Of a stretch of 53,617 nt of DNA, positions 888-33,063 are shown one piece after another. Source of the DNA: Myxococcales bacterium. Its GTDB lineage: Bacteria > Myxococcota > Myxococcia > Myxococcales > JAKAPL01. The translations under genes were made by a program, and so were the position numbers. The stretch spans positions 1-53,617 of the forward strand of contig JAJXUD010000028.1 of assembly GCA_021783235.1 (NCBI GenBank), read 5' to 3'. Below the pieces are notes generated by a model. It did no database searches and had not been told where the DNA came from. It saw only the letters and a program-made list of their open reading frames with translations. Position 1 is the first letter of the stretch, and every line of letters begins with the position of its first letter.

Positions 888-960
<73 letters not shown>

Positions 961-1008
961 AACTTCACCCGCTTCGCTGCAAACCCGCCTCCCTGACGCC
1001 CGACCTGG

Positions 1009-1082
<74 letters not shown>

Positions 1083-1116
1083 CATTCTCTTTCCGTCTCT
1101 CGCTCACCGCCACCGG

Positions 1117-1199
1117 TGGAGGGGGTAGGATTCGAACCTACGTAGGCTGACGCCGGCAGATTTACAGTCTGCTCCCTTTGGCCGCTTGGGTACCCCTCC
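1117..1199 (-). tRNA. tRNA-Tyr (anticodon GTA)
   Basis: An 83-nt class II tRNA on the minus strand with a long variable arm. The acceptor stem is GGAGGGG with CCCCTCC, the anticodon loop is CTGTAAA (anticodon GTA) and the T arm is TAGGTTCGAATCCTA. The long variable arm and the GTA anticodon identify tyrosine. It is second in the operon, as tyrU is in E. coli. Confidence 0.96.
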
Positions 1200-1271
1200 G
1201 GGGGACCTCTTCCTTTCTCTCGCTCGACCGCTCGGACCCGCCGTCGCTCGCGCTCGGACCTCCGCTTGAAG

Positions 1272-1344
1272 AGCTGGCGGTGGGACTCGAACCCGCGACC
1301 TACTGCTTACAAGGCAGTTGCTCTACCAACTGAGCTACGCCAGC
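1272..1344 (-). tRNA. tRNA-Thr (anticodon TGT)
   Basis: A 73-nt cloverleaf on the minus strand. The acceptor stem is GCTGGCG with CGCCAGC, the anticodon loop is CTTGTAA (anticodon TGT, reading ACA) and the T arm is GGGTTCGAGTCCC. It is the first gene of the tRNA-tuf transcript and lies just downstream of a strong promoter. Confidence 0.96.
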
Positions 1345-27430: not shown

Positions 27431-28492
27431 TCAAACCACCTCGATCGTGCCCGCCTCGCCGTCCCGTTTGGTCGCCTCGATCTCGCCAATCTCCGCGCCG
27501 ACGAGCCCCTCGCGGGCGAGCGCCTCCCGGTAGCCGAGGGCATCCTCCGGGGCAAGCGCGACGAGCAGCCCGCCCGAGGTCTGGGCATCCGCGAGGAGGA
27601 GCCGGCTGGTCTCGGAGACCCCCGCGTCGAAGCGGGTGAAGCCTCGCGCCCAGTCGAGGTTGCGCCGGCTGCCGCCGGGGAAGCTCCCGTTGACCGCGAG
27701 CTCGCGGGCCCCCTCGAGCAGGGGGACCGCCGACGCGCGCAGGCGCGCCGCGACGCCGCTGGCCGCGAGGAGGTTGTGCAGGTGGCCGAGCAGCCCGAAG
27801 CCCGTCACGTCGGTGCAGGCCGCGGCCCCATGCTCGAGCATGAGCTCCGAGGCGCGCCGGTTGAGCCGGGCCATCGAGGCGACCGCCTCCTCGATGGCGG
27901 CCGGGCTCGCGATCCCCTTCTTGATCGCGTTGCTGACGACCCCCGTCCCGATCGCCTTGGTGAGCAGCAGCCGGTGGCCCGGCCTCGCGCCGCGGTTGAG
28001 CACGGCCTTCGCCGGGTCGACGAGCCCCGTGACGGCGAGACCGAACTTGGGCTCGGGGTCCTCCACGGTGTGGCCCCCGATCACGGCGACGCCCGCCTCG
28101 TCGGTCTTCGAGAGGCCTCCGGCGAGGATCCGCTCGAGCGTCTCGAGCGAGAGGACCTTCGACGGAAATCCGACGAGGTTCAGCGCCGTGACGGGCCGCG
28201 CCCCCAAGGCATAGACGTCGCTCAGCGCGTTCGCCGCCGCGATCTGGCCGTAGGTGAACGGGTCGTCGACCACCGGCGAGAAGAAGTCGACGGTCTGCAC
28301 GAGGCAGACTCCCTCCGCCACGCGGTAGATCGCCGCGTCGTCCCCGGGCCCCTCCCCGAAGAGAAGGGCCGGATCGTGTCGCCGGTGCAGGCTCTCGAGG
28401 ACCTCGCCGAGGTCCTTCGCGGGGAGCTTGCAGGCTCAGCCGCCGCCGGAGGCGAGCGACGTCAGGCGCGGAGGGGGGGAGGGCTCGTTCAT
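27431..28492 (-). CDS. selD: Selenide, water dikinase (selenoprotein; in-frame TGA at codon 19)
   Basis: SelD makes selenophosphate from selenide and ATP, the selenium donor for selenocysteine synthesis. The gene is read through a TGA: from ATG at 28492 the frame runs MNEPSPPPRLTSLASGGG-U-ACKLP, with TGA at 28438-28436 (residue 19). The following frame continues without a stop for 334 codons to 27431. U19 stands where E. coli SelD has catalytic Cys17, and K22 matches Lys20. Later motifs are GDDAAIYRV, VQTVDFFSPVVDDPFTYGQIAAANALSDVYALG, GGHTVEDPEPKFG and CTDVTGFGLLGH. Full length is 353 residues, normal for the family. A gene finder that treats TGA as a stop would give a truncated protein starting near 28321. 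selB lies 5 kb away. Confidence 0.94.
28398..28435 (-). promoter_or_regulatory. Candidate bacterial SECIS element in selD
   Basis: Directly 3' of the selenocysteine TGA, an 8-bp perfect stem AGGACCTC/GAGGTCCT closes a GGC loop (28416-28398), 20-38 nt after the TGA. Bacterial SECIS elements are hairpins in the coding sequence immediately downstream of UGA, with the apical loop about 16-37 nt away, and are bound by the C-terminal domain of SelB. The position fits; the exact loop chemistry needed by this SelB is unknown. Confidence 0.65.
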
Positions 28493-28500
28493 GAGCGCGC

Positions 28501-28506
28501 AATATA
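28501..28506 (-). promoter_or_regulatory. Possible -10 box of selD
   Basis: TATATT on the minus strand (28506-28501) lies 8 nt before the selD ATG. The predicted start would be 1-2 nt from the ATG, so the message may be leaderless. No good -35 box is seen 17 bp upstream. Confidence 0.3.
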
Positions 28507-28578
28507 AGCGAGGCGGCGGGTGGGCGCACGCCCGCGCGGTGGCGCCTTCCGACGGGGCCGGTTAGTTTTCAAGGGAAC

Positions 28579-29646
<1,068 letters not shown>

Positions 29647-29695
29647 CGCTCCCCGCGACCGCCGCCGCGCAGCGTGGCGAGGAGCCCTTCGGGAG

Positions 29696-29770
29696 AAAAA
29701 AAAGAAGCGCCATACGCAATTGAAGTGGCGGGGGGGGACCGACTTCAATCAAGCGTATCGCGCTTCCGGC
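29696..29770 (-). ncRNA. Predicted sigma-54-dependent small RNA: one long hairpin with a C8 loop
   Basis: The predicted 75-nt RNA starts at 29770 (+1 of the sigma-54 promoter) and ends in U8 (29703-29696). It folds into a single hairpin: 7 bp (29766-29760 with 29710-29704), a G-G mismatch, 6 bp (29758-29753 with 29717-29712), a small internal loop, 8 bp (29749-29742 with 29726-29719), then two G-C pairs. These close an apical loop of U-C8-G. The hairpin plus U8 is also its own intrinsic terminator. A cytosine run exposed in a loop suits pairing with Shine-Dalgarno sequences. From known biology it resembles Pxr of Myxococcus xanthus, a sigma-54-transcribed developmental small RNA with a cytosine run in a loop, encoded beside an NtrC-type regulator and its kinase. 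Homology to Pxr is an inference. Confidence 0.85.
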
Positions 29771-29781
29771 ATGCTACTAAA

Positions 29782-29796
29782 GCAACCCTCGTGCCA
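29782..29796 (-). promoter_or_regulatory. Sigma-54 (-24/-12) promoter of the small RNA
   Basis: The minus strand reads TGGCACGAGGGTTGC (29796-29782). This matches the sigma-54 consensus TGGCACG-N4-TTGC exactly, with GG and GC separated by 10 bp. Counting from C at -12 puts +1 at 29770, which is the first base before the hairpin. No open reading frame follows in that direction, only the antisense of the clpX-like gene beyond the U8 tract. Confidence 0.9.
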
Positions 29797-29863
29797 CCGA
29801 ATGACAGTCCACAAGTCTTTGAAATCAGACGATTCAACCGGTCACCCGCCCGGGCGAGGCGGC

Positions 29864-29907
29864 TGCATTTGCATCCGCGCATTGCAGAAATGCAACAAAC
29901 ATTGCAA
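29864..29907 (-). promoter_or_regulatory. Candidate upstream activating sites (TGCA-type repeats) for the sigma-54 activator
   Basis: About 95 to 140 bp upstream of the predicted small-RNA start lie clustered TGCA motifs: TGCATTTGCAT (29864-29874), an inverted repeat TTGCA-GAAA-TGCAA (29882-29895) and ATTGCAA (29901-29907). Enhancer sites for NtrC-type activators are inverted repeats at this distance. The stretch is unusually AT-rich for this genome and begins right after the end of the activator gene. Confidence 0.6.
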
Positions 29908-29914
29908 GGGTGCG

Positions 29915-31318
29915 TCAGTTGGCGCCGCGCTGGCGCCGAGGGTCCGTCCCCGACATTCCGAGCCGCTTCATCTTCCGCCAGAGCGTCGCGGGGTGAATCC
30001 CGAGCTCCCGGGAGACGGCGGCCATGTCGAAGGCGTGGCGAGAGAGCGCCGCCCCGATGGCCTCCCGCTCGGCCTCGTCGACGATCCGGGCGAGGGAGCG
30101 GCCGTCGCCCTGGCGCACCTCGGGCGGCGGGGGCCCCTCGACGGGGCCGAGCGGGAAGTCGTCCGCCTGAAGCAGCTCCCTCTCGGCGAGCGCGGCGGCC
30201 TGCTCCACGGCGTTCTCGAGCTCGCGCACGTTGCCGGGGAAGTCGTGTCCGACGAGCCGCGCGACCGCCCCCTCGGTGAGCACGCGACGCGTTCCGCTCC
30301 TCGCGTTGTAGCGCTCGACGAAGTGCTGCGCGAGCAGCGGGATGTCCTCCTTGCGGTCCCGAAGGGGCGGGACATGGAGCGGAACGACGTTGAGCCGGTA
30401 GAACAGGTCCTCGCGGAACCGGCGCTCCGCGATCTCCTGCCGCAGGTCGCGGTTGGTCGCGGCGACCACGCGCACGTCGATCTGGACGCTCTCGCTCTCG
30501 CCGACGCGCCGGATCTCGCCCTCCTGAAGCGCCCGGAGCAACTTGGCCTGGAAGCTCGGCGAGGTCTCCCCCACCTCGTCGATGAAGAGGGTGCCGCCGT
30601 CCGCCTCCTCGAAGAGGCCGCGCCGCGCCTTGATCGCGCCGGTGAAGGCGCCCTTCGCGTGGCCGAAGAGCTCGGACTCGAGCAGGGTGTCGGTGATGGC
30701 GGCGCAGTTGACCGCCACGAAAGGCTTTTGCGCCCGGGGGCTCGCCGCGTGGACGGCGCGCGCAACGAGCTCCTTGCCGGTGCCGCTCTCCCCGGTCACG
30801 AGGACGGTGGCATCGCCGGCGGCGACCCGCGCGACCTTGGCGAGCAGGTCGCGGACCGCGTTCGATCGGCCGATGATGGCCTGCGTCCCGAAGCGCTCGC
30901 GAAACTCGCCCGCCCAGAGCCCGACCTCCCGGAGGAGCTGCCGCCGCTCGAGCGCCCGCGAGAGCCGGATGAGCAGCTCCTCCTGCTTGAACGGCTTCGT
31001 GACGTAGTCGGCGGCCCCGTGCCTCATCGCCTCGACGGCGCTGTCGATCGTGCCGTAGGCCGTCATCATGACGACCTGAATCCCCGGGGCGGCCTGGAGG
31101 GCGCGCCGCAGGAGCTCCAGGCCGTCCATCGGCTCCATCTTGAGGTCGGTCAGGAGGAGATCGAAACCCTCGCCCGCGAGCTTCGCGAGGGCGGACTCCC
31201 CATCCGGGGCCTCGTCCACGTCGAAACCCTCGTGCGAGAGCATCAGGGCGGTCGTCGCCCGCATGTTCCTCTGGTCGTCGACCACGAGCACTCGGGCTCG
31301 CCGCTTCCCAGGAATCAT
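29915..31318 (-). CDS. NtrC-family sigma-54-dependent response regulator
   Basis: This 467-residue activator has three domains. Residues 1-125 are a receiver with phosphoacceptor D58 ([13 protein letters not shown]) and Thr/Lys switch residues (MMTAYG, YVTKPF). The central AAA+ domain has Walker A GESGTGKE, the sigma-54 contact loop GAFTGA (in [12 protein letters not shown]), Walker [12 protein letters not shown] and the arginine-finger region [21 protein letters not shown]. The C-terminus is a Fis-type helix-turn-helix ([23 protein letters not shown]). The intact GAFTGA shows that it can activate sigma-54 polymerase. Its ATG overlaps the kinase stop (ATGA). The sigma-54 small-RNA promoter lies just beyond its 3' end, the likely target. 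In position and type it matches PxrR of Myxococcus. Confidence 0.95.
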
Positions 31319-33063
31319 GGCTTCGCTCCCGGCTGCTCGGGAAGGTGGAGGCTGAAGACGGCGCCCCGGGGGGCTCCGGACGCGACGGTGACGCCACCGC
31401 CGTGGCCTTCGAGGATTCGCCGCACCACCGCGAGGCCGAGGCCCGTCCCGGTGGCCTTCGTCGTGAAGAACGGCTCGAAGATCCGGTCCCGCAGGTGCGG
31501 ATCGACGCCGGGACCGTCGTCCTCGACGTCGACGACCACGGCGGCCGCGCCGTTCCACTCCCCGCGGCGAACGACGACCCGCAGCCGCCCCCGATCGCCC
31601 ATCGCCTGCACCGCGTTGACGAAGAGGTTCAGGAGCGCCTGCCGGATCTGCCGCCGATCCATCGCGACCCGGTCGATGCCGGGCTCGACCGCGAGATCGA
31701 GGTCGATGCCAGGCATGGTGATGGAGGCGGCGGCCGCGTCCTCGATCACCTCGGCGACGGGAACGCTCTCGACCGCGAGCTCGTGCGGCTTCGCGAAGTC
31801 GAGCAGATCGCCGATGATCCGGTTGATCCGGTCGGCCTCCTCCTCGAGGATCGAGAGCAGCGTGCCGATCTCGCCGTCCTCGGACCAGCGGCGCCGCAGG
31901 CCGCCGAGGACGTTGAAGATCGCGCCGAGCGGGTTTCTGACCTCGTGGGCCACCGCCGCGGCGAGCTCGCCGAGGGCCGCGAGCCGCTCCCGGCCGACGA
32001 GCTGGGCCTGAGTGGTCTCGAGCTCCGCGTACGAGCGGCGCAGGTCCTCGTTGAGCCGCGCGTTCTCGACGGCGGCGGCGAGGTGGCTCGCGACCGCCTG
32101 GACGCGATCGATCTCCTTCTCGCTGAAGCGACGGAAGGTCCGCGTCTCGTCGAACAGGAGCGAGCCGATGGGCTTGCCGCCGTGGATCATCGGGACCGCG
32201 AGGAGCGACTTGTCGCCGAACCGCTCCACCAGAGTGGGGTTGGCGCGCGGGTCGGTCGTCGCGTCGTAGACGGCGATCGGCCGCCGCTCCGAGAGGGCGA
32301 GCTGGGACAGCGAGCCCACCGGCCCCGCCGGGATGCGAAGCGTGCGCCGGGCCTCTTCCTGCTCGCCGATCCCCGCGGCCCCCCGCAGATCGCCGCTCTT
32401 GGGATCGACGAGGAGGACGAAACAGCCGCTCGCGTCGATGAGGGCGGTGAGCCGACGGGCCGCCGAGTCGAGGACCGTGGAGAGCGGCTCCCCCCGGCTC
32501 AGGGCGCTCGCGACGTCCTGGATCACCGAGAGGTCGGCGATTCGATCGGTCGCCTCGCGGTACTGCCTCGCCTTCTCGATCGAGAGCCCGAGGTGGCGCG
32601 CGGTCGCCTCGGCTTGCCGGACGTCCGAGGAGCTCCAGCGCCGCGGCCGGAAGCCTCCGAGGAGCATGCAGCCGACGGGGCTCGAATGGCCGTTGACCCG
32701 AACGATCAAGACGGACGAGATCCCGAGCTTGACCGCGCGCGGCAGCGTCATCGGGAAGTCGCCGAGATCGCTGATGACGATCGCCGCGTCGCCGCGAAAG
32801 ACATGCGCGGTCGGCAGATCGCTGTCGATCGGGATGGGATCGATCGTCAGCTCGGGCGGAAAGCCCACCTCGCAGATGAGCTGCCGGCGTTCGGGATCGG
32901 CGAGCATCACGACCGCCCCGTCCGCCCCGCAGCTCTCGGCCGCCAGGCGGGCGCTCTGCGCGATCACCTCGCGCTCGTCGAGCGACGGGATCTCGAGGAG
33001 CTCGGGCGCCTCGCGGCCCAGGAGCACGCCGGCCAGCTCGCCCTCGTCGCCGGGAAGGGTCAT
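31315..33063 (-). CDS. GAF-domain sensor histidine kinase, partner of the NtrC-type regulator
   Basis: This 582-residue protein has no transmembrane helix, so the sensor is cytosolic. Two GAF domains occupy about residues 30-165 and 175-335 (phrases GADGAVVMLADPERR and DASGCFVLLVDPKSGDL). A coiled coil then leads to the HisKA domain with H373 in LAAAVAHEVRNPLGAIFN. The ATPase has N box QALLNLFVNAVQAMG, G1 VDVEDDGPGVDP and G2 GTGLGLAVVRRILEGHGG. It overlaps selB upstream and the regulator downstream by ATGA, so the three are translated together. It corresponds by context to PxrK of Myxococcus. The ligand of the GAF domains is unknown. Confidence 0.94.
   Translation of the reverse strand: MTLPGDEGELAGVLLGREAPELLEIPSLDEREVIAQSARLAAESCGADGAVVMLADPERRQLICEVGFPPELTIDPIPIDSDLPTAHVFRGDAAIVISDLGDFPMTLPRAVKLGISSVLIVRVNGHSSPVGCMLLGGFRPRRWSSSDVRQAEATARHLGLSIEKARQYREATDRIADLSVIQDVASALSRGEPLSTVLDSAARRLTALIDASGCFVLLVDPKSGDLRGAAGIGEQEEARRTLRIPAGPVGSLSQLALSERRPIAVYDATTDPRANPTLVERFGDKSLLAVPMIHGGKPIGSLLFDETRTFRRFSEKEIDRVQAVASHLAAAVENARLNEDLRRSYAELETTQAQLVGRERLAALGELAAAVAHEVRNPLGAIFNVLGGLRRRWSEDGEIGTLLSILEEEADRINRIIGDLLDFAKPHELAVESVPVAEVIEDAAAASITMPGIDLDLAVEPGIDRVAMDRRQIRQALLNLFVNAVQAMGDRGRLRVVVRRGEWNGAAAVVVDVEDDGPGVDPHLRDRIFEPFFTTKATGTGLGLAVVRRILEGHGGGVTVASGAPRGAVFSLHLPEQPGAKP

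Follow-up and report, generated by a model that had tools for sequence, protein, structure and literature searches.

The 53.6-kb stretch of DNA analysed here as a whole (the window) contains a gap of 268 bp between convergent genes (29647-29914), in which a long hairpin with a run of cytosines in its loop follows a promoter of the sigma-54 type. This raises the question of whether the gap encodes a small RNA and, if so, of what kind. The original prediction was a sigma-54-driven small RNA (sRNA) made of a single hairpin, with a predicted +1 at 29770, a C8 loop and a U8 end in the convergent gap, and the coordinates of these elements are right (Table 1). It had missed the enhancer palindrome (29895-29882), the genes for a sigma-54 activator and a histidine kinase upstream, and the kinship to Pxr with PxrK/PxrR. 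Judged by its sequence, the hairpin can be assigned with high confidence to a PxrR-driven sigma-54 sRNA.

Table 1. Features of the predicted sRNA locus and of the adjoining regulator genes (window coordinates).
Feature	Position	Strand	Basis
Predicted Pxr-like single-hairpin sRNA, about 75 nt	29696..29770	-	length as predicted from promoter and U tract
Interrupted hairpin stem, pairs 8+6+9+3	29703..29767	-	folding; compensatory changes in relatives
C8 apical loop within conserved GGUCCCCCCCCGCC	29730..29737	-	identical in 11/11 closest copies
U8 tract, intrinsic terminator tail	29696..29703	-	T-rich tail kept in relatives
Sigma-54 promoter, -24/-12 box TGGCACGAGGGTTGC	29782..29796	-	sequence motif
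Enhancer (UAS) palindrome TTGCATTTCTGCAA, consensus TTKCA-N4-TGMAA, predicted PxrR site	29882..29895	-	motif match
NtrC-type sigma-54 response regulator (receiver, AAA+, Fis-type HTH), PxrR ortholog	29915..31318	-	domains, scores, tree
GAF-domain histidine kinase, PxrK counterpart	31315..33063	-	domains, gene order

The box TGGCACGAGGGTTGC (29796-29782, minus strand) is the only exact match to the -24/-12 consensus in the 53.6-kb window by pattern scan, with 0.03 expected, as is consistent with the exact promoter first claimed for this strand. Counting from C(-12) at 29782, the predicted +1 is G29770, and the first base of the stem, 29767, follows three bases on. A scan of the window found no sigma-70-type promoter near the hairpin. 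The start of the enhancer palindrome lies 99 bp upstream of the -24 box, and the palindrome is the one match in the window to TTKCA-N4-TGMAA (0.02 expected, pattern scan), which is predicted to be a PxrR-type enhancer; the motifs are those of a sigma-54 promoter with an upstream enhancer, as in the Pxr system. The hairpin folds with a minimum free energy of -37.0 kcal/mol, compared to a mean of -17.5 for shuffled sequences (z -7.0), and none of 200 shuffles is as good. Its C8 loop is closed by a U-G pair, and the bulges that interrupt the stem are probably the reason why a simple terminator scan missed it.

When 60 relatives were searched with the plain DNA sequence, copies of the hairpin were found in the window's family and in a second family of the order, that of Anaeromyxobacter (PSR-1, oryzisoli, soli, terrae and oryzae). 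As the original prediction anticipated for relatives, the stem arms covary while the -24/-12 box and the C loop are kept. Among 25 single-hairpin copies from several families, 9 of the 12 basal-stem pairs have changed on both sides, 91.3% of basal-stem cells are paired versus 32-56% when slid, and the covariation score is reached by none of 500 shuffles. The stem drifts and the loop is nearly invariant, with C7-C10 in 53 of 54 distinct promoter-linked copies. Wherever a -24 box is detected in relatives, it lies 27-31 nt from the hairpin, with the intervening sequence free. Additionally, TTKCA-N4-TGMAA precedes 29 of 33 related loci, canonical pxr included, and is found upstream of single-hairpin and canonical forms. 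A pattern of enhancer and promoter only matched 76 of 142 genomes, compared to 9 matches in all for the reversed control; in the window's own 4.6-Mb genome its single place is the window locus, and elsewhere it revealed C-loop hairpins missed by the RNA models (L236, L237). With promoter, enhancer, spacing, pairing and C loop conserved in many genomes, the prediction of a sigma-54-driven single-hairpin RNA is strongly supported. Two contigs end within the hairpin (L232 at the G014:C115 end, L233 at the G061:C291 end), one of them within roughly 30 consecutive C; as contigs break at this point, hairpin copies may be under-counted.

The nearest known system is Pxr of Myxococcus xanthus (RF01812) with PxrK and PxrR (SpdS/SpdR, MXAN_1077/1078), an RNA that prevents fruiting-body formation in this organism while food lasts. 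The pxr gene lies downstream of pxrK/pxrR, depends on both and has a predicted sigma-54 promoter, and the SL1 loop of the RNA is essential (PMC5684412, PMC10217877, PMC5568312). Further traits of the Pxr system are PxrR-dependent expression and processing of the RNA from an L to an S form. Whereas Pxr has three hairpins, SL1-SL3 (two in some Cystobacter paralogs), and a C7 loop, the window sRNA has a C8 loop and one hairpin ending in U8, which combines SL1 and terminator in a fused stem, unlike Pxr. In M. xanthus, Pxr accumulates only if SL3 is present (PMC5684412); this stem-loop is absent from the window sRNA, as is SL2. The RF01812 covariance model gives the window hairpin 17.8 bits (E 0.32; cut-off 80), with agreement limited to the SL1 part, and Rfam at gathering threshold detects tRNAs only in the window. 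Given a score below the cut-off and no SL2 or SL3, the sRNA is not a member by the present Rfam definition, but is Pxr-like by descent and system.

Evidence for this descent comes from RNA models built on either side. Two models of the single-hairpin form without any Myxococcaceae sequence (R1, R2) land on RF01812 pxr places in Myxococcaceae, such as G093:C5:120109-120178 versus 120119-120227. A third model, restricted to SL1 and built from Myxococcaceae pxr (R3), has its best match at the window hairpin, with E 1.7e-4 in the window and E 0.015 in the whole 4.6-Mb genome, where a second match (C67) is nearly as good at 18 bits. This second match lies inside a transporter-like coding region and was rejected as a chance match. 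One locus, L118, is intermediate, carrying a Pxr-type SL1 atop a long basal stem. These model matches identify the hairpin as an SL1 with the GGU(U/C)C7-8 loop, homologous to that of Pxr, and taken together with the regulator orthology and the enhancer palindrome they make the relation of the sRNA to Pxr firm. Pxr and the single-hairpin form have in common an SL1 with a poly-C loop, as well as tandem copies in some species.

The regulators point to the same kinship. The PxrK- and PxrR-encoding genes are located immediately upstream of the sRNA on the minus strand, giving the order histidine kinase, response regulator, sRNA, so that the sRNA gene lies directly downstream of pxrK-pxrR. Of 195 genomes in the phylum, 130 contain a PxrR match at E <= 1e-150, with orthologs at 488 bits or more (54-75% identity) and the next paralogs at 418 bits or less. 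In the tree, the window response regulator falls with Myxococcaceae PxrR in a clade of 19 rows (support 100/99) whose members share a recognition helix, and it forms a reciprocal best match with its counterpart in G188, a genome from outside the order. By these comparisons, it is an ortholog of the regulator upstream of pxr. Gene order, NtrC-type activator, enhancer motif and sigma-54 promoter are common to Pxr and the window locus, and we regard the predicted sRNA as a minimal form of the Pxr system rather than as an RNA of a new kind.

From the computed anatomy, SL1 homology, regulator orthology and conserved enhancer and promoter, we infer a transcript, the direction in which the signal acts, binding by PxrR, target pairing and a physiological role as follows. 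PxrR would be phosphorylated by the kinase PxrK and, bound at TTKCA-N4-TGMAA about 100 bp upstream, would activate sigma-54 polymerase at the -24/-12 box. The RNA of about 75 nt would then be made, its single hairpin serving both as the terminator and as the functional part, equivalent to Pxr SL1 with its C loop. This exposed loop would most likely pair with G-rich stretches of target mRNAs, often ribosome-binding sites, and these mRNAs would be repressed while the kinase signals growth or plenty. Such a PxrK-PxrR-Pxr module, with a single-hairpin sRNA whose C loop most likely pairs with G-rich mRNA, is very probably what the locus encodes. Sigma-54-activated sRNAs of two-component systems include Vibrio Qrr with LuxO and GlmY/GlmZ with GlrR, and in these, as predicted for the window, transcription of the sRNA from a -24/-12 promoter is driven by an NtrC-type regulator. 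Hfq is the partner of Qrr and GlmZ; neither the Qrr nor the GlmY/GlmZ families have an Rfam match in the window.

By homology, the C8 loop would be the working part of the RNA, as Pxr of M. xanthus loses its function when the fifth base of the SL1 loop is changed from C to A (PMC5684412, PMC10217877). The initial proposal that the C loop pairs with Shine-Dalgarno regions is plausible because this single change in the homologous loop inactivates Pxr (PMC5684412), but no conserved target emerged to bear it out: the expected targets at G-rich ribosome-binding sites yielded no homologous gene recurring among 40 sampled G7-before-ATG sites. In ten out of ten genomes, G7 runs located 3-11 nt before ATG exceed the reversed control, about twofold (40 versus 23 in the window's own genome), an excess that Shine-Dalgarno bias alone could explain. 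RepG of Helicobacter pylori is an sRNA targeting G-repeats in mRNA leaders (PMC8295292), and its likeness to the window sRNA is one of working mode at most, given a different host, no known sigma-54/NtrC control and no expected homology.

Base pairing with G-rich leaders is, with moderate confidence, the likeliest mode of action. It is unlikely, though worth weighing, that the PxrR-controlled sRNA instead offers its C loop to a protein, as a decoy or scaffold. A nearly invariant C7-C10 loop on a drifting stem is what a protein site would look like, the very stable stem leaves only the loop exposed, and the 40 sampled sites gave no conserved mRNA target. However, pure C runs are, to our knowledge, not a common protein site in bacteria. 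The precedent of RepG for targeting G-repeat leaders (PMC8295292) and the roughly twofold G7 excess in ten genomes also argue for pairing with mRNA, even if Shine-Dalgarno bias could suffice for the latter.

Two other readings of the locus were considered. That the hairpin is a cis-acting leader or attenuator controlling a downstream gene could be suggested by Anaeromyxobacter, in which a receiver-domain-like ORF starts about 30 nt after the hairpin. In the window, however, the next gene is convergent. Moreover, the sequence beyond the hairpin varies from family to family, U tracts come after the hairpin, and G002 carries three tandem copies downstream of pxrR, each with its own sigma-54 box (L087, G002:C158, 2116-2764). 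With the downstream gene convergent here and variable elsewhere, this reading is rejected as very improbable. Least credible, and barely so, is a chance pairing of a promoter-like box with the terminator of the response-regulator operon, without any separate RNA: the hairpin does lie 3' of the response-regulator gene and would also terminate it, but promoter, enhancer and spacing are kept across families even where pxrR is elsewhere in the genome, and the C loop is conserved.

The distribution of the PxrR-controlled sRNA bears on its origin. Canonical three-stem Pxr (RF01812) occurs in only a single family of the order (f4, taken to be Myxococcaceae), while the single-hairpin form is present in Anaeromyxobacteraceae, the window's family and others. 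A separate terminator-like hairpin comes after the C-loop hairpin in f8 and f9. The sRNA is not adjacent to pxrR in f8, f9, f2 and f3, with pxrR elsewhere in the genome in f8 and f9, and in f7 (G008) it again comes after pxrR. Inspection of the neighbourhood in G158, G163 and G164 revealed a PxrR ortholog with no recognisable sRNA beside it. Separation of sRNA and pxrR, and orthologs lacking an sRNA neighbour, count against the proposed module. The AT-rich genome G188, outside the order, has a complete module, made up of the kinase and regulator genes, two perfect TTTCATATATGAAA sites, TGGCATTATATTTGC, and a long hairpin whose loop includes a C9 run. A match in Pirellulaceae was rejected, as it has no long stem.

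Previous work treats Pxr as having arisen recently in one myxobacterial suborder, with the origin of pxr placed within Cystobacterineae, now the order Myxococcales (PMC5568312, PMC8538405, PMC11928866). In contrast to the fruiting M. xanthus, the window's family is uncultured and the related Anaeromyxobacter forms no fruiting bodies (PMC8538405), so the role of the sRNA in Anaeromyxobacter cannot be fruiting-body control, and general control of the growth state is the more likely conserved role. Many metabolic genes have been reported under Pxr regulation during growth (PMC11928866). It is conceivable, if somewhat short of probable, that Pxr in its ancestral and self-sufficient form was the single C-loop hairpin, a growth-state riboregulator that predates fruiting-body control and extends beyond Myxococcales, with SL2/SL3, processing and a developmental role being later additions in Myxococcaceae. 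A one-hairpin counterpart in non-fruiting Anaeromyxobacter, along with the complete G188 module, would date the origin of Pxr further back, uncouple its core function from multicellular development and narrow its active part to one loop. Furthermore, the common enhancer motif provides a direct handle on the PxrR regulon, and the small, easily mutated RNAs of cultured Anaeromyxobacter make the question of Pxr-type targets testable.

Other hairpins were encountered in the same searches. Anaeromyxobacteraceae contain a second type (L097, L099, L100, L149), characterised by the core GGGGACCCCCC(C)GCACCTC, with a sigma-54 box and located away from pxrR; the enhancer is also present at three of these four loci. 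In two other families of the phylum, L143 (G156:C133) and L144 (G147:C17) consist of adjacent paired hairpins with C7-C9 loops and without the PxrR enhancer, and hairpins of this type are perhaps a wider class of C-loop RNAs.

Elsewhere in the window, a four-tRNA gene cluster is located at 888-1344 (minus strand). The gene convergent with the sRNA, at 28579-29646 (plus strand), encodes a ClpX-like AAA+ protein of 355 amino acids, seemingly shorter than usual ClpX. The gene for SelD (selenide, water dikinase) at 27431-28528 (minus strand) has an in-frame TGA near 28438, in the motif GGG-TGA-ACK, at which the ORF list shortens SelD; read through, this TGA is as expected for a selenocysteine-containing SelD.
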